Assembly: GCF_013371465.1 (NCBI RefSeq) | Contig: NZ_JABWDU010000009.1 | Span: forward strand, 124,001-188,000 | Length of the DNA stretch: 64,000 nucleotides | Direction of reading: 5' to 3' | DNA from: Ensifer oleiphilus | GTDB taxonomy: Bacteria; Pseudomonadota; Alphaproteobacteria; Rhizobiales; Rhizobiaceae | Part shown: one piece after another, positions 55,630 through 64,000 of the stretch | Layout: each line of letters opens with the position of its first letter | Position numbering within the stretch: the first letter of the stretch is position 1 | Notes under the pieces: model-generated | Told to the model about the DNA's origin: nothing | The model's input: only the letters and a program-made list of their open reading frames with translations | The model's database searches: none | Translations under genes and position numbers: made by a program

Positions 55630-55820
55630 GCCCTTCGATTGGATAGCCTTCCACCCGGCCACGAATCTGCCGGCGGCCGCCATATCGTCAACAAACTGAA
55701 GACCTTGATCTAGAACAACCTCTCCCCGGACGGAGTTGTCCATAGTGCCGCTGGCCGCAGATTCCCTGCAGCCGCCTGCCCTAAATGGCAAATTTGAAAC
55801 TCTTCTGGGGGTCCGGAATC

Positions 55821-56525
55821 ATGTCTACTCGCTCCATCCTGCCAACTGCCGTCGCATTTCTTCTGCTGGCGGCCTCGGTCACTACGGCGCGCGCCGCGGA
55901 CCTGACTGCACCGAGCGAACCTGCCCCTGAATTGCCGGCCATAAGCGAGCAGAGCCCATGGATGATCCGCGCTCGCGCGCTCGCCGTTCTGCCCGAAGAC
56001 AAGGCGTCGTTGCAGCTGAACGGCACGTCGCTTAACGGCGAAAAGGTCGGCGTCAGCAATTCGGTCGTACCCGAGCTCGATATCACCTACTTCTTCACCG
56101 ACAATATTGCGGCGGAACTGATCCTTGGCACGACCCCGCACACGGCCAGGGGCAGCGGCTCGATCGCCGGCCTCGGCGAGATCGGCAAGGCGTGGCTGCT
56201 GCCACCGACGCTGACGCTGCAGTACCACGTCAATCTGACCGACACGATCAAGCCCTATGTCGGCGCCGGCGTGAACTACACCATCTTCTACAACGAAAAG
56301 GCGAAGGGCGACTTCTCCAGCTTCAACCTCAAGAACACCTTCGGCGTTGCCTTGCAGGCCGGCGTCGACATCAAACTCGACGATCACTGGGGGATCAACT
56401 TCGACGTCAAGAAACTGTTCCTCGAGCCTGAGGTCAACGCGACCCTGCCGGGGGCCGGCACGGTGACAGGCAAGGTGAAGCTCGACCCGTGGCTGATCGG
56501 CACAGGCATCACCTACCGCTTCTGA
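55821..56525 (+). CDS. outer-membrane protein of the OmpW family
   Basis: A 234-residue beta-barrel protein with a signal peptide ending ARA-A (about residue 26). The barrel has alternating hydrophobic strands, including LDITYFFTDNIAAELIL and PYVGAGVNYTIFY, and ends in YRF with the C-terminal aromatic typical of outer-membrane barrels. OmpW-type barrels pass small hydrophobic compounds. The ATG at 55821 was preferred over one 36 bp earlier because it begins the signal peptide and has GGGGG upstream. Confidence 0.88.
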   Translation: MSTRSILPTAVAFLLLAASVTTARAADLTAPSEPAPELPAISEQSPWMIRARALAVLPEDKASLQLNGTSLNGEKVGVSNSVVPELDITYFFTDNIAAELILGTTPHTARGSGSIAGLGEIGKAWLLPPTLTLQYHVNLTDTIKPYVGAGVNYTIFYNEKAKGDFSSFNLKNTFGVALQAGVDIKLDDHWGINFDVKKLFLEPEVNATLPGAGTVTGKVKLDPWLIGTGITYRF

Positions 56526-56639: not shown

Positions 56640-57059
56640 TCATGCGTGGTGTGCGGTTACGGCCTTAACCAATCCGGTTGTCAATTCACGGCTGGTCGCA
56701 TGCGAGATATCGCCAAGCGACAACATGCCGACCATGCGCTTTTCGTCATCGATGACCGGCAGGCGCCGTACTTTCTTTGCCTCCATAAGACGGACAGCCT
56801 CTTCGATACTCTCGCTGGTGCGGCAATAGACGATGTCCTTCGTCATGACGTCGCGCGCGGTCAGCGATGCAGCGTCGTGCCCATTCGCCCAGGCCCGAAC
56901 CGCAATGTCCCTGTCCGTCACCATGCCGATGAGGCGATCGTTTTCGCCAACCGGCAGGGCGCCGATATCCTCATCACGCATGATCCTTGCCACGGTGCGC
57001 AAATCCGTTTCAGGGGCTATCCAGCGCGCGCCGGGGTGCATGGCTTCCCAAGTTCTCAT
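56640..57059 (-). CDS. CBS-domain protein
   Basis: A 139-residue protein made of two CBS domains (about residues 8-62 and 68-125). Each has the family pattern GALPVGENDRLIGMVTDRDI and RRLPVIDDEKRMVGMLSLGDI. CBS pairs bind adenosyl ligands such as AMP and act as energy sensors; the partner here is unknown. It is followed by the convergent ompW hairpin. Confidence 0.92.
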   Translation of the reverse strand: MRTWEAMHPGARWIAPETDLRTVARIMRDEDIGALPVGENDRLIGMVTDRDIAVRAWANGHDAASLTARDVMTKDIVYCRTSESIEEAVRLMEAKKVRRLPVIDDEKRMVGMLSLGDISHATSRELTTGLVKAVTAHHA

Positions 57060-57466: not shown

Positions 57467-58228
57467 TTACCGGCCGCCGTCTTTGGCGACGAAGAGCAGA
57501 TCGAACCCGCGGAATTCACGCCGGGCGGCGGACTTCTTGAGGGCAGTCCATATCGCCTGGGGATTGTCGAGGCGGAAGCCATTGAAGCTGCGGACCAGGC
57601 CCAAGGTCGCCAGGATGGTGCGAAACGCCCTGACGATGACGGGGCCACTCAGCGAGGCGAACAGAATTTGCGGGTGCACGGCGAGCAGGACGCCCGCCGT
57701 CCGCGCCCGATCGATATCGCCGAACTGAGCCAGGGACCTGTACTCATAGCCCTCTATATCGATCTTGAAACACAGCTTGTCGGTTCGGGCCATCGATTGC
57801 AATTCGGCGATCGTGATCGTTTTCGCCTTGATTGCCTGCCCCGTCTCGTCCGCGATCAAAGCCGAGGTTTCCGAACTGCCAAAGCCGCCGCCAACCGAGT
57901 TCAGCACCAGCACCTCGTCCTCGGACAGTGCGGCATTGATCAACGTGACATCGCCCTCATTCTGCGGCTCCATTTCCTTCAGTATGCCGAAGCAGACGGG
58001 GTCGGGCTCAACAGTAATGACATTGTCGGCAATCTGAGCCGCCCAATAGGGCGTCACGCCGATCCAGCCGCCGATATCGACAAAGGTCGTGTTGGCGTCG
58101 ACGAGGCGTTCGATGTTCTGGAACGTGCAAGGCTCCCACTCGCCGCTTTGAAGGCGCGTAAAGAAACGCTTCTTCTCAGGCTTGTCGGGGAAATGGACGG
58201 TCTTACAGAAATAGGTGATCGCACGCAT
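57467..58228 (-). CDS. FkbM-family methyltransferase
   Basis: A 253-residue SAM-dependent methyltransferase of the FkbM type. The SAM-binding motif FVDIGGWIGVTPYWA is at about 49-63, the acidic loop VEPDP follows, and the family motif FKIDIEGYEYRSL lies near 153-165. FkbM enzymes methylate sugar or polyketide hydroxyls and are common in polysaccharide clusters. It lies about 100 bp downstream of the cNMP-binding gene in the same direction. Confidence 0.9.
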   Translation of the reverse strand: MRAITYFCKTVHFPDKPEKKRFFTRLQSGEWEPCTFQNIERLVDANTTFVDIGGWIGVTPYWAAQIADNVITVEPDPVCFGILKEMEPQNEGDVTLINAALSEDEVLVLNSVGGGFGSSETSALIADETGQAIKAKTITIAELQSMARTDKLCFKIDIEGYEYRSLAQFGDIDRARTAGVLLAVHPQILFASLSGPVIVRAFRTILATLGLVRSFNGFRLDNPQAIWTALKKSAARREFRGFDLLFVAKDGGR

Positions 58229-58327: not shown

Positions 58328-58792
58328 TCACGCTTCCATGCGCTCGTTGCGGCTGCGCGCTTCCGTCAGTTCAGCGGTCGTCTGGCTCAAGCGGTCAGCC
58401 AGCACGCGCATGATCTCCACCGCCATTTCGGGGAAGTCGGCCAGCAGCTTCAGGAAGTCGTCCTTGCGGATGCGCAGGGCCTCGAGCGGGGTCGTGGTGC
58501 GCACGGTTGCCGTACGCGGGGTATTACAGAGAATGGCGATTTCGCCGACGATGGAATTTTGCTCGACCTCCGCCAGCTTCAGTGGCCCGCCTGCGGTCGT
58601 CACCAGCACGTCGGCCTTGCCGGAGAGGATGACATAGGCGGCGTCACCGATATCACCCTGGTAGAAAAGGGCCTCCCCGGCGCTATACATGACCCGATCG
58701 GAGGTAAAGGCAAGAAGCTTCAATTTTGCAGGCGGCAATCCCGAAAACAGGGTTATCCGGCGCAGCATTTCCACTTCATCCTTGAGCAACAT
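58328..58792 (-). CDS. stand-alone cyclic-nucleotide-binding domain protein
   Basis: A 154-residue protein consisting of one cNMP-binding domain. The phosphate-binding cassette is GEIAILCNTPRTATV, with G83, E84, R93, T94 and A95 matching the cAMP-contacting residues of the Crp/PKA family. There is no DNA-binding domain and the C-terminal helix ends at residue 154, so it is not a transcription factor. It follows the 900-residue ABC-like gene by 92 bp and may be a regulatory subunit of it. ATG at 58792 or the preceding GTG at 58795 is the start, with GGGAGAA upstream. Confidence 0.88.
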   Translation of the reverse strand: MLLKDEVEMLRRITLFSGLPPAKLKLLAFTSDRVMYSAGEALFYQGDIGDAAYVILSGKADVLVTTAGGPLKLAEVEQNSIVGEIAILCNTPRTATVRTTTPLEALRIRKDDFLKLLADFPEMAVEIMRVLADRLSQTTAELTEARSRNERMEA

Positions 58793-58884: not shown

Positions 58885-61587
58885 TCAAGATGCCATTTCC
58901 TTATAGTCGGGTCCTTCGTTAGCCCCCACTTCCGTATGGTCGTCGCGAAGCAGGCGGCCATTCTCGAAAACTGCGACGCGGTCGAACAGTTCCATCACCG
59001 CCGGATTGGCAACGACCCAGACGATTGCCGGGTTGCGACCATCCTGGCGCAGAAGCGCAAAGACGTTGCGGATCACCTGCTCCTGTACGCGTTGGTCGAG
59101 TGCCAGCAGGGGCTGGTTGAAGATGTAGAAATCGCAGATTCGGATGAGCGCGCGGGCCAGATCCAGCTTCTGCCGCTGGCCTGCGGTCAACCGCTTCCCC
59201 CCAGCACCGACATTGAAATCGAAGCCGAAGGCGAGCACATCGTTGTAGAGGCCGACAGCCTCGAAAAGATCGCGCACGATTGCCCGGATCTTCTCGGATC
59301 CGTCGGCGTGCTTGTGGCCAATGCGCCCGAAAAGCACGTTGTCGATGATGCTGCCGGAAGCGATGTAGCGGTTTGGACGATAGTGTTCGATCATGCCTGC
59401 AAGGTCCGCCGGCAGCCCTTCGTCGAACTCACGTCGTGCTGCGACGATCTTTGCCATGAGCTCGTCGGTCAGGAGACCGAAACGGTGGCGAGGTTCGATG
59501 TAGCCGAAACACAGACGAATGATCTTGACCTGATCGTCCTCGGCAACATCGGCGCGCGCTCGGCCGCGAACCTTTTGCAGCAACGCCTCATACACGGGGA
59601 TTTCTTCCGCTGTCATGAAGGTCAGCTGCTGGAAGAACGGGTGATCCGGCGGCAGGTCGCGGAACAGTTCGACAACGTTCTCGGCAATCTCCAGGCCCAT
59701 TTCGTAGAAGACGTCACGCAGGCCGACCCGCTGCAGCACTGTCTTGAAAAACGGATGCCCCTCGAGCGCACCGTCCCACATCACCTGGTCGGTGATCGTG
59801 CCGAAGAGCAGGTTTTCGCCGATGGTCGCTTCGATGTTGTACGAGCCGGGCTCGAAGAACACCACGAGATCGCTGAGCTTCTCCTTTTCGAGGCGCTGCC
59901 GGAGCGCACCGCGCATCTCGACGATACCGGCGGCAAAAGCCGCATTGCGGTTCGGATCGATGGTCGAGCGAACCGCGAGCGCCATCACGTCGTTGGTGAG
60001 AAGAACGGCATCGAGCACCGGCCTGATCTTGACCAACAGATCCTCAGGCCCGGTTGCGCCAGCGGCCCGATAGTCGATCCAATCGCTGTTGACGTCGAAG
60101 TGCGGGTTCCCGGCGAGTTTGGCTTCGACCAGCTCCCACTTGCGATGGACCGCACCTTCACCTTCGTAACGCACTTCCGTCAAAGGCGCGTGCTTCAAGC
60201 CGTAGAGCAGGTTGTCGCCAAGGCTGCCCTGAAACACGTAGACATCCGAGGAAGCGTAGGAGATACGCCTGCCCGTCACCGATTCCGGCATCTCCAGAAT
60301 ATCCTGGCTGCCGATGAGAATTCGACCGCTCGCCGGCCAGATCAGTCGGGCGAAAGCTTCGGCCAGCACTTCGCCGCCGGGTTTGAGTGCGACCGCCTCG
60401 CCTGGCTGCACCTGCAGCGAAACGTGATCGAGAAGCGTTGCGCCGCCATCATCAGTCACCGTCAGGTTGACCGCTGCGAGCGCGCCACTCAAGGGCTCGG
60501 CACTTGTCGCTGCGATCGCGTGAACCTTGGGATCGAGCAGCGGATCGACGCTGAATTGCTCGACGACCTGCGCATATTTGACCTGCACGTCCTGGCGCGC
60601 CTGATCCCAGTCGATCAATTCCTTCAGAGGCCCAGGCAGATCCTTGTAGGCGCCGATGACGGCAACGAGTTGGCCTATGTCAAGCCGGCCCTGAAGCGCG
60701 AAATAGCCACCGATCGAATAGAACAGGAACGGCGTCACCTGGGCGAGGAAGTTGTTGATGAACTTGACCAGGAACTTCCACTGATAAAGGTCGTAACGGA
60801 TCTTGAAGATCCGGGCGAGCCGCGATGCGATGTCGGCGCGCTCGAAATTGGAGGTGTCGTAACCCCGGATGGTGCCAATGCCATCGACGATCTCGCTCAC
60901 CCGGCCGGACAATTCTCGCGCGGTCAGCTGGCGCTCTCGCCCAAGGACAAGCAACCGCTTTCGCATGCGTGGGATAATGATCGCCTGCACGGCGACGATG
61001 ACCGTGGCGATGAGACCGAGCCAGAAGCTCTGCAGCAGAATGAAGATCAAGGCCGTCAATGCCTGGCCGCCGAGCAGCGCCGGCGACACGAAGGCATCGC
61101 CTGTGAAACCGCCGAGGGGCTCCACTTCATCCTTGATCATCGTCGAGATCTCGGCCGGCTTCACCCTTTTGAAATGCGTTGGTGGAAACCGCAGCACCCG
61201 ATCGACGAGTTCGAAGCGGATGCGCCGCAAGAGGCGCTCGCCGAGCCGCCCCTTGAAGGTGTTGATGTAAAACTTGAAAAGGCCGTTCACCACCACAAGC
61301 AGCAGGAAGACGAGACTCAGCGCCAGAAGCATACCTTCGCGGCCGAGCTGGAAGCCGTCGAACAGATTGATCGTCCCGAGATAGGGCAGGTCAAAAGAGA
61401 TCGCCAGGAACGCCTGCGTCGCTTCCGGACTGTCAAAGCCGTCGCCTTGTATAGGTCCGTTGACGATCTGCTTGGGCAGATCGAAGGACAGGAAATACGG
61501 GATCATGGAAAACGCGACGACCACCAGAATCCAAAGCTGGTCCTTGCGCGTATGGGTCCAAATGTAGCGGGAGAGGCGTGATTCCAT
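58885..61587 (-). CDS. ABC exporter-like protein with degenerate ATPase domain
   Basis: A 900-residue protein. Residues about 15-345 form an ABC-exporter-type transmembrane domain. The nucleotide-binding domain runs from about 365 to the end and is about 270 residues longer than usual. The Walker A position reads ALKPGGEVLAEAF (no GxGKS/T), the Q-loop Gln is missing (ASSDV), Walker B is FYIFNQPLLALD (Asp-Glu replaced by Asn-Gln), and the H-loop is VANPAV (His replaced by Asn). The signature LTAGQRQK at 800-807 and D-loop ALD are kept. Three post-Q-loop motifs occur: GSLGDNLLYG (454), ATIGENLLFG (587) and GSIIDNVLFG (745). Confidence 0.9.
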   Translation of the reverse strand: MESRLSRYIWTHTRKDQLWILVVVAFSMIPYFLSFDLPKQIVNGPIQGDGFDSPEATQAFLAISFDLPYLGTINLFDGFQLGREGMLLALSLVFLLLVVVNGLFKFYINTFKGRLGERLLRRIRFELVDRVLRFPPTHFKRVKPAEISTMIKDEVEPLGGFTGDAFVSPALLGGQALTALIFILLQSFWLGLIATVIVAVQAIIIPRMRKRLLVLGRERQLTARELSGRVSEIVDGIGTIRGYDTSNFERADIASRLARIFKIRYDLYQWKFLVKFINNFLAQVTPFLFYSIGGYFALQGRLDIGQLVAVIGAYKDLPGPLKELIDWDQARQDVQVKYAQVVEQFSVDPLLDPKVHAIAATSAEPLSGALAAVNLTVTDDGGATLLDHVSLQVQPGEAVALKPGGEVLAEAFARLIWPASGRILIGSQDILEMPESVTGRRISYASSDVYVFQGSLGDNLLYGLKHAPLTEVRYEGEGAVHRKWELVEAKLAGNPHFDVNSDWIDYRAAGATGPEDLLVKIRPVLDAVLLTNDVMALAVRSTIDPNRNAAFAAGIVEMRGALRQRLEKEKLSDLVVFFEPGSYNIEATIGENLLFGTITDQVMWDGALEGHPFFKTVLQRVGLRDVFYEMGLEIAENVVELFRDLPPDHPFFQQLTFMTAEEIPVYEALLQKVRGRARADVAEDDQVKIIRLCFGYIEPRHRFGLLTDELMAKIVAARREFDEGLPADLAGMIEHYRPNRYIASGSIIDNVLFGRIGHKHADGSEKIRAIVRDLFEAVGLYNDVLAFGFDFNVGAGGKRLTAGQRQKLDLARALIRICDFYIFNQPLLALDQRVQEQVIRNVFALLRQDGRNPAIVWVVANPAVMELFDRVAVFENGRLLRDDHTEVGANEGPDYKEMAS

Positions 61588-61903
61588 GTTTCTGGCAACG
61601 GGACCTTATTGAACACTACGATGTGTGCGGCGAGGGCTGCCACCATACCCGGCCACGATATGCTTGCTTACCGCGCATTTCGACTGAACCGATACAGGCC
61701 TTCGGCCGCGAACGCGTTTCGGCAAAATCCGATCCGGCTTCGAATCCGGTTTATTAGATTATGCAGGTGCAAGAGAAATCCGCAATGGACCTGCCTTCGC
61801 CTTTGAGACCCGCGATCGATTTCCATGGCAAGAGGTGGAACTGGTACCAAGGGAGAAGAGCGCGCTTATTGCACTCGATTGCCTGCCAGCTTACAACGGC
61901 AGC
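61588..61903. other. divergent promoter region, no recognised gene
   Basis: About 315 bp between the ABC-like gene and the methyltransferase gene. The only notable feature is an A/T-rich patch at about 61748-61762. An open frame continuing from 61835 could extend the methyltransferase N-terminus by 23 residues. No hairpin or RNA gene is evident. Confidence 0.4.
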
Positions 61904-62578
61904 ATGAAACACGCCAGCCACCACCCTACTCCTGCGAGCGACTGGTACGAAAACGCTTTCGACCTGACGCGCGGAATTGCCGCTTACACCAGAAGTCCGC
62001 TGGTCGACGGCATAGCCAAGGTGATCGCCAAACATCCCGACGCCGATATCGCCAACGCCTTCAACCATAAGCAGGTTGCCTGCAAGATCTGGGCGCGCGA
62101 CACGCTGCTGCAAGCCGCGGGGAAATCCTATGAGCGGATCGTGGTTCTGGGCGGTTGGTATGGAATCCTTCCGGCCATGTTGCTGGAGGACCGCCGATTC
62201 GAGATTGCCGTGGCTGAAAGCTATGACATCGACCCCTCCGTAGAGACTGTGGCGCGTACGCTCAACGCGACCCATGCCGACCGTTTTCGTGCGGTCACCG
62301 CCGATATGTACGCGATCGACTACCCTCGCCTCGGCGCCGACCTGATCATCAACACGAGCTGCGAACACATCGCCGATCTTCGCAGCTGGCTTGAATTGAT
62401 ACCGGCCGGCACACGTGTCCTCCTGCAGTCCAACGATTATTTCAGCGAACCGACACACATCAACTGTGTTGCGTCCGTAGAAGCATTCGCCGACCAGGCG
62501 AAACTTTCGACAATCGATTTTGCCGGCGCCTTGCCGACGAAGAAATACACACGGTTCATGCTGATCGGGACGGTCTGA
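61904..62578 (+). CDS. class I SAM-dependent methyltransferase family protein
   Basis: A 224-residue Rossmann-type methyltransferase. The SAM-binding region reads RIVVLGGWYGILPAMLL, followed by an acidic AESYDIDP and the later LGADLIINTSCEHIADL segment. A specific substrate cannot be given. ATG at 61904 has no strong ribosome-binding site, and GTG at 61835 or another start in the same open frame is possible. Its end overlaps the convergent glycosyltransferase gene by 23 bp, so the two transcripts are convergent. Confidence 0.8.
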   Translation: MKHASHHPTPASDWYENAFDLTRGIAAYTRSPLVDGIAKVIAKHPDADIANAFNHKQVACKIWARDTLLQAAGKSYERIVVLGGWYGILPAMLLEDRRFEIAVAESYDIDPSVETVARTLNATHADRFRAVTADMYAIDYPRLGADLIINTSCEHIADLRSWLELIPAGTRVLLQSNDYFSEPTHINCVASVEAFADQAKLSTIDFAGALPTKKYTRFMLIGTV

Positions 62579-63722
62579 CAGGCGCCTTCAAAAGCCACTC
62601 ACGCAGGATCGCCGCCGTCTGGGCGGCGCCTTCGAGGTCAAGCGGCGGCATTGCCGGCTTCGCGCGAGCAAGCTGTGTTTCAACATCGCGCGCCAGGCGA
62701 GCGGGCGTTATGTCGTTTTCGGGCAGGACGCCGGCGAGCCCGAGCTTTTCCAGTCGCGCTGCCCGCGTCGATTGTTCCGTTTCGCCGCCGGCCGTGAACG
62801 GGATCAACAGAGATGCACAACCCGCTCGAATGATGTCGCAGACCGTATTGTAACCGGCCTGTGAAACGGAAAGCCGCGCGCCGGAAAGCAGGCTGGCAAA
62901 ATCCTGGCGAAACCGGAACAGATTCACATTCCCGGGAGCAGCGGATTCGAAAGCGTCATAGTCGGCCTGCGGCAGATTGGGGCCTGTCACCAGGCACCAT
63001 TTAAGCTCCTGCGGCAGAAGTTTCGCGGCCTCAAGGCCGGCGCCGATCAGCTCTTTACCAACCGCGCCGCCGCCGGCCGAAACCAGCACGTCGAACCGCT
63101 CCCGCGGCAGCGCAGGCGCGCTGCCCGCGACGAGGCCGGTATAGGCGACCTTGTCGGCGATCTCCCGCGCGTAGGGAAACGTCTCTTCAAGCCGGGCAAA
63201 GGCGGGATCGCCGTGGACGAGCACAAGGTCGAAATGCGCCTGCACCAGCTCCAGCATTTCCTCGGCGCGGCCCGGCTTGTTCCGCTCCTGCAGGATATCG
63301 CGCAGCGATGTTGCCACCAGCGGGCGCGGGTTTGACGCCTCGATCAGGTCGAGCAACGGCATCAATTCAAACCGCATCTGGCGGCGCCCGAACGGAAACG
63401 CCTCGAAAATCACAACATCCGGGTCGCAGGTGCGGAATGAATCCAGCAGCATATCCCGCCGACGTTCCTTGAATTCATCATCCACCGGCTGTCCGGTTTC
63501 GTCGGCGAGGCCAGAAAACCCCTTGTCGCCGGCAACGACCGGCGGCAACGCTACGTGCTTCAAATCGGACGCTGGAAAGCCGGGAACCGGTGTACCGCCA
63601 GTGACGACCGTGACGTCGAAACCGTCGACAGCCAGCGCACTGGCAATGCGACTTGCCCGTGCCAGATGGCCGATCCCCAGCAGATGCTGGACATAGAAGA
63701 AGACCCGCAGCTGCCGTGTCAT
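62556..63722 (-). CDS. predicted glycosyltransferase, GT-B fold (MurG-like)
   Basis: A 388-residue glycosyltransferase of the COG4671/MurG-like type. The N-terminus has VFFYVQHLLGIGHLARASRIASAL. The C-terminal nucleotide-sugar-binding half contains VSAGGGAVGKEL and the motif LSVSQAGYNTVCDIIRAGCASLLIPF. It would transfer a sugar from a UDP-type donor to an envelope or exopolysaccharide acceptor. The ATG at 63722 overlaps the upstream glycosyltransferase stop by 4 bp (ATGA), so the two genes are coupled. Confidence 0.85.
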   Translation of the reverse strand: MTRQLRVFFYVQHLLGIGHLARASRIASALAVDGFDVTVVTGGTPVPGFPASDLKHVALPPVVAGDKGFSGLADETGQPVDDEFKERRRDMLLDSFRTCDPDVVIFEAFPFGRRQMRFELMPLLDLIEASNPRPLVATSLRDILQERNKPGRAEEMLELVQAHFDLVLVHGDPAFARLEETFPYAREIADKVAYTGLVAGSAPALPRERFDVLVSAGGGAVGKELIGAGLEAAKLLPQELKWCLVTGPNLPQADYDAFESAAPGNVNLFRFRQDFASLLSGARLSVSQAGYNTVCDIIRAGCASLLIPFTAGGETEQSTRAARLEKLGLAGVLPENDITPARLARDVETQLARAKPAMPPLDLEGAAQTAAILREWLLKAPVRPSRSA

Positions 63723-64000
63723 GCCAATTTCCACTCGTTTGCAAACAGCTTCGTAAGCTGGTCGATGCTGGAGTGATGGTCAAACTGCGTCCTCACCCGC
63801 TGTTCGGCAGCAGCCCCCAACTGGGCGCGGCGTGCAGGGTTGCGGATCAACTCTTCCAGCGCGAGCGACAGCGCCTGCGGATCTTCCGAAGGAACGACCC
63901 GGCCGTTTTCGCCGTCAATCAGGAGTTCGGGCACGCCGGATATTGCCGTAGACACGCAAGCAAGTCGCTGGCTCGACGCTTCGACGAGCACATTCGGCAG
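63719..64000 (-). CDS. glycosyltransferase family 4, C-terminal part (5' end outside window)
   Basis: The last about 93 residues of a GT-B glycosyltransferase. They contain VEASSQRLACVSTAISGVPELLIDG with the E-x7-E-like donor-binding segment characteristic of GT4 enzymes, then NGRVVPSEDPQALSLAL and a final helix. The N-terminal acceptor domain lies outside the window. It is translationally coupled to the MurG-like gene and suggests a polysaccharide-biosynthesis cluster continuing past the right edge. Confidence 0.88.
   Translation of the reverse strand: MPNVLVEASSQRLACVSTAISGVPELLIDGENGRVVPSEDPQALSLALEELIRNPARRAQLGAAAEQRVRTQFDHHSSIDQLTKLFANEWKLA

Follow-up and report, generated by a model that had tools for sequence, protein, structure and literature searches.

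What can an ATP-binding cassette (ABC) exporter still be doing when every residue needed to hydrolyse ATP has been replaced? ABC exporters are, after all, textbook ATP-driven pumps. The question is raised by a gene in a 64,000-nucleotide stretch of Ensifer oleiphilus (contig NZ_JABWDU010000009.1, positions 124,001 to 188,000; hereafter the window, in whose numbering positions are given), which codes for a 900-residue protein, P0001, combining an exporter-type membrane domain with a nucleotide-binding domain (NBD) that is both degenerate and enlarged by repeated copies of one module. The existence of this degenerate exporter with a tripled module, first noticed in a sequence-only reading of the window that gave no strand, is confirmed by our analysis. 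Its parts are as follows:

58885..61587, minus strand: 900-residue ABC-exporter-like protein with a degenerate NBD (P0001; open reading frame and Pfam; full-length match in 16/16 genomes of the genus, its own included)
60553..61587, minus strand: exporter-type transmembrane domain, residues 1-345 (PF00664; AlphaFold secondary structure; ratio of nonsynonymous to synonymous substitution rates, dN/dS, 0.020-0.057)
60352..60396, minus strand: degenerate, shortened Walker A (P-loop), residues 398-412 (motif alignment)
59854..60270, minus strand: module copy 1, residues 440-578 (strand, short helix, strand, helices, long helix, strand; AlphaFold and hhalign)
59377..59871, minus strand: module copy 2, residues 573-737 (AlphaFold and hhalign)
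59110..59397, minus strand: module copy 3, residues 731-826, whose end is formed by the native signature helix and the Walker B strand (AlphaFold and hhalign)
59167..59190, minus strand: signature LTAGQRQK, residues 800-807 (motif alignment)
59095..59133, minus strand: degenerate Walker B (N824, Q825) and retained D-loop D831, residues 819-831 (motif alignment)
59005..59028, minus strand: H-loop region without histidine, residues 854-861 (motif alignment)

The order of domains, a PF00664-type domain and then an ABC NBD, is that of an ABC exporter. ABC_membrane (PF00664) matches residues 87-311 with an E-value of 6.7e-21, and the ABC_tran match (E 3.3e-5) reaches 24.9 bits, marginally below the curated cut-off of 25. 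In the AlphaFold model, the membrane domain consists of long helices, the first and second of which are separated by an additional beta segment (residues 58-81), and the NBD fold is complete, the three module copies being held inside it. MsbA (TIGR02203) is the top NCBIfam match, but at 147.5 bits against an equivalog cut-off of 602 the protein does not qualify as a lipid A exporter. It also differs from the MsbA-type homodimeric exporters (TIGR02203; PDB MsbA) in its absent ATPase residues, in an insert of about 270 residues carrying the further module copies, and in having a cyclic-nucleotide-binding (CNB) partner, to which we return below.

The six residues of a functional ABC ATPase are all missing (0/6), as the sequence-only reading had held: G405 stands at the place of the Walker A lysine, E406 at that of the adjoining Ser/Thr, S447 at the Q-loop glutamine, N824 at the Walker B aspartate, Q825 at the catalytic glutamate and A860 at the H-loop histidine. 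Walker A reads ALKP-GGEVLAEAF, without GK[ST], and its P-loop stretch counts 9 residues versus 13 in 188/209 members of the family; this shortening by four residues is found in 16/16 members of the genus set. What is kept in P0001 is the LTAGQ signature and the D-loop ALD831, while Walker B ends in FN-Q. As a control, GxxxxGK[ST] was found in all 15 other exporter-type open reading frames (ORFs) of the same genome, whose lengths agree with open frames. The selection of this set leaned towards ORFs containing a Walker A or signature pattern, and in several of the 15 simple searches for the other motifs matched nothing, so that the claim is restricted to Walker A.

In order to see how general the losses are, 245 locus proteins were reduced to 209 by dropping identical ones and any containing X; a 106-member subset holds members below 75% identity and of at least 820 residues, and the model alignment has 85 rows, namely P0001 and 84 of 94 listed members. 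No member keeps all six core residues (0/209) and 128/209 keep none; homologues share the losses, a point that the sequence-only reading had proposed to check. Homologues with intact residues, which would have spoken against it, exist in part: the lysine is retained in 55 members of the 209, the Ser/Thr in 12, the glutamine in 20, the aspartate in 22, the glutamate in 45 and the histidine in 26, five of the six occur together in a single member (L224) and four in 11, these counts depending on the alignment, mostly at the gapped H-loop. The earlier statement that the signature is retained holds for P0001, where LTAGQ is near-canonical, but only partly for the family, in which the signature glutamine (189/209) and the D-loop aspartate (195/209) are kept and both glycines are mostly lost (G802 kept in 31/209, G803 in 40/209). 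A Walker A pattern was also matched at other places in L029, L151 and L128, which we read as chance.

Since the canonical NBD is the ancestral state of ABC proteins, we treat these differences as losses. On a tree of the 106 members, computed from membrane-domain columns, the minimum number of changes is 20 for the lysine, 15 for the aspartate, 17 for the glutamate and 18 for the histidine; these figures are rough and do not distinguish gain from loss, the tree having been made by a quick method with 35/103 inner branches open. Three of the 106 rows keep all four of these residues, 40 keep none, and the window's own clade (25 rows) has no row with any of them. ATPase decay seems to have been graded and repeated across the family, since as many as five residues survive in a few deep branches, and the deep relatives that keep one or another of the four support both our placement of the motifs and descent from ordinary NBDs. 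Three very divergent members on a long branch (L164, L165 and L166) have lost all four tracked residues and have no CNB gene within about 1.5 kb.

The genus protein search that gave the 16/16 full-length matches found the gene to be patchy in the order. A search with a 17-row alignment returned a match at 1e-60 in 98/289 sampled genomes of the class and, across the phylum, in 31/398 genomes, all within the window's own class; a 28-row profile of the insert only likewise matched 31/398 genomes at 1e-5, again in the same class alone. With the insert of L133, a deep member, tblastn found 263/72,556 plasmid records, and the ten organism names among the matches listed are, we take it, alphaproteobacterial; none of 50,697 phage records is matched by the insert of the window protein. 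In a one-genome-per-species scan of bacteria and archaea with 558 confirmed places, the best 80 all carry rhizobial names, a result silent on other phyla. Within what was searched, the family is alphaproteobacterial as judged by these matches, and members in other phyla are possible.

The enlargement of the NBD is the second feature that sets the family apart. The motif (S/T)(I/L)xxN(L/V)L(F/Y)G occurs three times in P0001, at residues 455-463, 588-596 and 746-754, and family profiles of the three modules resemble one another in hhalign (1-2, E 2.2e-7; 2-3, E 1.5e-13; 1-3, E 1.6e-7), whereas 19/20 comparisons with control segments gave an E-value of at least 0.029; the one exception (E 1.8e-4) pairs module 1 with a segment lying within module 2. 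The helix-strand tail of module 1 matches that of module 2 (E 1.2e-10), with only 0.038 and 0.11 against the native signature helix, and a profile of the insert also matches copy 3 in 12 genomes. Taken by itself, the insert matches nothing in Pfam and has no convincing sequence relative in the PDB (best E 0.2). The tripling after the Q-loop that had been proposed from the motif copies is borne out by these comparisons, and the AlphaFold model, the kind of model in which the earlier reading had proposed to look for three half-domains, shows three copies inside one complete NBD fold; together with the residue losses, the module profiles support the earlier description of a pseudo-ATPase with an internal duplication. 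The duplication seems to predate the complete residue loss, because partly intact members share the tripled layout.

The gene is under purifying selection over most of its length, dN/dS being 0.022-0.096 over residues 1-890 in seven pairs, several dS values exceeding 1 and so lying near saturation. Among four regions, the membrane domain is the lowest in 5/7 pairs and the Walker A half (0.074-0.196) the highest in 6/7; the insert has 0.011-0.092 and the C-terminal part 0.013-0.174. The plus strand carries an 881-residue ORF, which was not searched; an antisense artefact was rejected, as the Pfam domains and the homologues belong to the minus reading.

The strongest clue to function is a new observation, namely the linkage or fusion of the exporter to a CNB domain. 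The partner lies immediately downstream:

58328..58792, minus strand: CNB-only cyclic-nucleotide-binding protein, 154 residues from the likely ATG at 58792 (PF00027, E 1.1e-20)

The ORF extends to 58828 with a TTG start (166 residues), and a 465-nucleotide gene is annotated at the matching place in Sinorhizobium meliloti. PF00027 scores 73.9 bits against a cut-off of 27.5 and is the sole Pfam match of the 166-residue ORF at E-values up to 1, with no DNA-binding domain among the matches; the S. meliloti record annotates the neighbour as a Crp/Fnr transcription regulator, but the helix-turn-helix that this name implies was not found in the window protein. The sequence-only reading had suggested looking for a conserved neighbourhood with this gene, and the CNB domain is adjacent or fused in 199/207 genes: 188 have it adjacent (downstream on the same strand, at most 800 nt away), 11 have it as a C-terminal fusion and 8 lack it, the fusions having been called by a coarse script and two of the 209 members left out as they had neither a hit nor 500 bases downstream. 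All four fusions tested with Pfam (L158, L230, L233 and L245) hold ABC_membrane, ABC_tran and cNMP_binding in one chain, ABC_tran being below its cut-off in L158, and the tails of L231 and L237 look alike to those of the confirmed fusions. By PF00664 and PF00027 coordinates, exporter domains lie at 16 places of the window's genome and CNB domains match at 15, and the window pair is the only combination of the two within 5 kb.

The glutamate and arginine of the phosphate-binding cassette are the ligand-contacting residues of CNB domains; Glu96 is found in 184/199 and Arg105 in 191/199 CNB rows (the window's own and the best match in each of 198 loci), gaps being scored as misses. In PADLOC, Pycsar TIR effectors resemble the protein in their CNB part (1.4e-16), a match that we take as a shared domain only; given this match, the ligand need not be cAMP. 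Three members for which the examined sequence shows no CNB gene (L120, L128 and L130) keep four of the six ATPase residues; a link between CNB absence and better-kept residues was considered and dropped, L120 and L128 being sisters on the tree and L130 lying outside it.

Some genes of the wider neighbourhood may make surface glycans. The genes around the pair are:

57467..58228, minus strand: FkbM-family methyltransferase, second gene downstream (TIGR01444, E 1.3e-20; the order in S. meliloti matches)
61835..62578, plus strand: divergent gene whose S. meliloti counterpart is annotated as a class I S-adenosylmethionine (SAM) methyltransferase (no Pfam match in the window)
62556..63734, minus strand: GT28-type glycosyltransferase (PF04101, E 1.5e-13)
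63719..64000, minus strand: C-terminal part of a group-1 glycosyltransferase running off the window (PF00534, E 1.1e-11)

Both glycosyltransferases, thus, lie upstream of the pseudo-exporter. A GT28-type or group-1 cluster occurs within 8 ORFs in 78/80 near-relative loci (both in 56), which are closely related and not independent, and in 51/79 distant loci (both in 39). Neighbour ORFs were called by length alone, some being spurious, and clusters were named by the Pfam matches of their representatives, one GT28 representative scoring below the cut-off. In the distant loci, these clusters are often divergent and at recurring positions, with a histidine phosphatase-type cluster in 26/79; L168, L172, L190 and L213, for example, have a divergent group of GT28-type, group-1 and histidine-phosphatase-type genes upstream.

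How are these observations best put together? We give about an even chance to a non-hydrolytic membrane protein of exporter fold that a cyclic-nucleotide sensor controls and that acts in a glycan or glycolipid pathway. The ATPase site of an ABC half-transporter would have decayed, completely in the window lineage, and its NBD would have been enlarged by two extra copies of a helical-subdomain module; the exporter and the adjacent CNB protein would work as one unit, in which the CNB protein would bind a cyclic nucleotide and control the membrane domain through the enlarged pseudo-NBD, and the membrane domain would handle a glycan or glycolipid made by the nearby glycosyltransferases. A constrained membrane domain, an NBD fold without its chemistry and a near-invariable CNB domain fit a unit set by cyclic nucleotides, and we infer that ATP hydrolysis would be absent in vivo; the glycan or glycolipid cargo is suggested solely by the glycosyltransferase neighbours. 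A more specific version, in which the cyclic nucleotide replaces ATP as the controlling ligand and the CNB protein gates an ATP-independent channel or flippase via the threefold-repeated pseudo-NBD, is possible, although we hold it only tentatively. Several facts weigh against this picture. Twelve of the 209 members keep four or five core residues, and some of them may bind or hydrolyse ATP; the widely kept signature glutamine and D-loop aspartate have no obvious need in an inert domain; 28/79 distant loci have neither glycosyltransferase cluster within 8 ORFs (some contigs being short); the CNB domain is absent from 8/207 genes, as said above; and no experiment on this family was met with in the literature searched.

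The main rival accounts for these facts nearly as well. The protein could be a membrane scaffold or regulator in the manner of SUR in the K-ATP channel, its pseudo-NBD and CNB partner sensing a cyclic nucleotide and regulating a glycosyltransferase complex or another membrane protein. SUR and CFTR are ABC proteins turned regulator or channel, which bind nucleotides at their NBDs, and the exporter fold is there used beyond plain pumping, as proposed here. The loss of the ATPase residues in a conserved fold and gene agrees with such a role, as does the frequent position among glycosyltransferases, and SUR2B heads the structural matches by Z (26.4), level with ABCC1 (26.3) and close to ordinary exporters. 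The lowest dN/dS of the membrane domain in most pairs, however, fits a transport path too, and whereas SUR has a channel as partner, none is known for the window protein and no recurring channel gene was seen among the Pfam-named representatives of 15 neighbour clusters; on balance, we find a regulator rather unlikely. Still less probable is that P0001 forms the degenerate half of a heterodimeric exporter, in which a canonical half-exporter from another locus would contribute Walker A, Walker B and the H-loop, and P0001 the signature and D-loop, to one working site. TM287/288, TmrAB and BmrCD, which have the fold in common with P0001, are heterodimers in which one NBD has substituted catalytic residues, and the retained LTAGQ and D-loop, like the glutamine and aspartate kept across the family, would suit this arrangement, for which the genome offers 15 other exporter-type places. 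The window chain, in contrast, has lost all its Walker A, Walker B, Q-loop and H-loop residues, the signature glycines are mostly gone from the family, and no second exporter was found on the window's contig (268,892 bases) or among the 15 cluster representatives, where the sole ABC genes are parts of an oligopeptide importer; since two genes need not adjoin, this lack of an adjacent half-exporter merely weakens the idea.

The family also shows a recurrent exchange, an acidic residue at 406 and an asparagine at 824 (window 60370-60372 and 59116-59118), E-N or D-N in 145/209 members, also where the lysine is lost. It could mean an active ATPase with an unusual site, the acidic residue having been exchanged between the Walker A Ser/Thr and Walker B Asp positions, and many deep members do keep the lysine together with the pair; but the window lineage has lost the lysine, the P-loop length, the glutamine, the catalytic glutamate and the histidine as well, and we regard activity of this kind as highly improbable. 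As for a gene decaying without function, to which the motif loss and the weak Pfam score of the NBD might point, the dN/dS values and the full-length matches throughout the genus speak against a pseudogene, and we practically discard it.

Our preferred reading of a signal-controlled, non-hydrolytic exporter would, if true, have consequences beyond this locus. In the more specific version, with the CNB protein as the gate, the family would to our knowledge be the first in bacteria of ABC exporters that are signal-gated and non-hydrolytic. Rhizobia carry many cyclases, and their cyclic nucleotides would gain a possible direct membrane target beyond transcription, beside possible surface-glycan genes. 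The family is also a natural test of what the ABC fold can do without hydrolysis, its graded losses across lineages forming a natural series on how an ATPase is given up. The sequence-only reading knew of no described family with this layout, and we found none by title or abstract in the open-access literature searched; a description elsewhere is possible.

The S. meliloti orthologue of the window gene lies at pSymB 841,723-844,432, presumably apart from the msbA2 region, and by position, as far as can be judged, it is a gene different from msbA2. S. meliloti MsbA2 is described as an ABC exporter encoded beside pSymB glycosyltransferase genes that exports a polysaccharide of undefined function, its gene lying with galactoglucan genes in the 259.2-kb B307 region (PMC12239276). 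A candidate locus tag in S. meliloti 1021, about SMb20953/54, was dropped, SMb20954 being reported as ExoH. The name msbA homologue is given to SMb20813 in another paper (PMC10945364); as the pSymB records of strains 1021 and 2011 come without a gene table, it could not be tied to the orthologue's coordinates, and we claim no phenotype from it. Three further genes are at most candidate members of this cluster. Mutating smb20804 and smb20805, which is said to affect capsular KPS, is reported to alter competitiveness under a plant peptide (PMC5539429), and for SMb20811 a third paper states that there is no sign of importance for growth, stress or symbiosis (PMC6180224).

Among minor observations, the exporter matches mad3 in PADLOC (1e-5), which we take as a shared domain only. 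Beyond the FkbM-family gene lie a CBS-domain protein on the minus strand (56640-57059) and an OmpW-family outer membrane protein on the plus strand (55785-56525).
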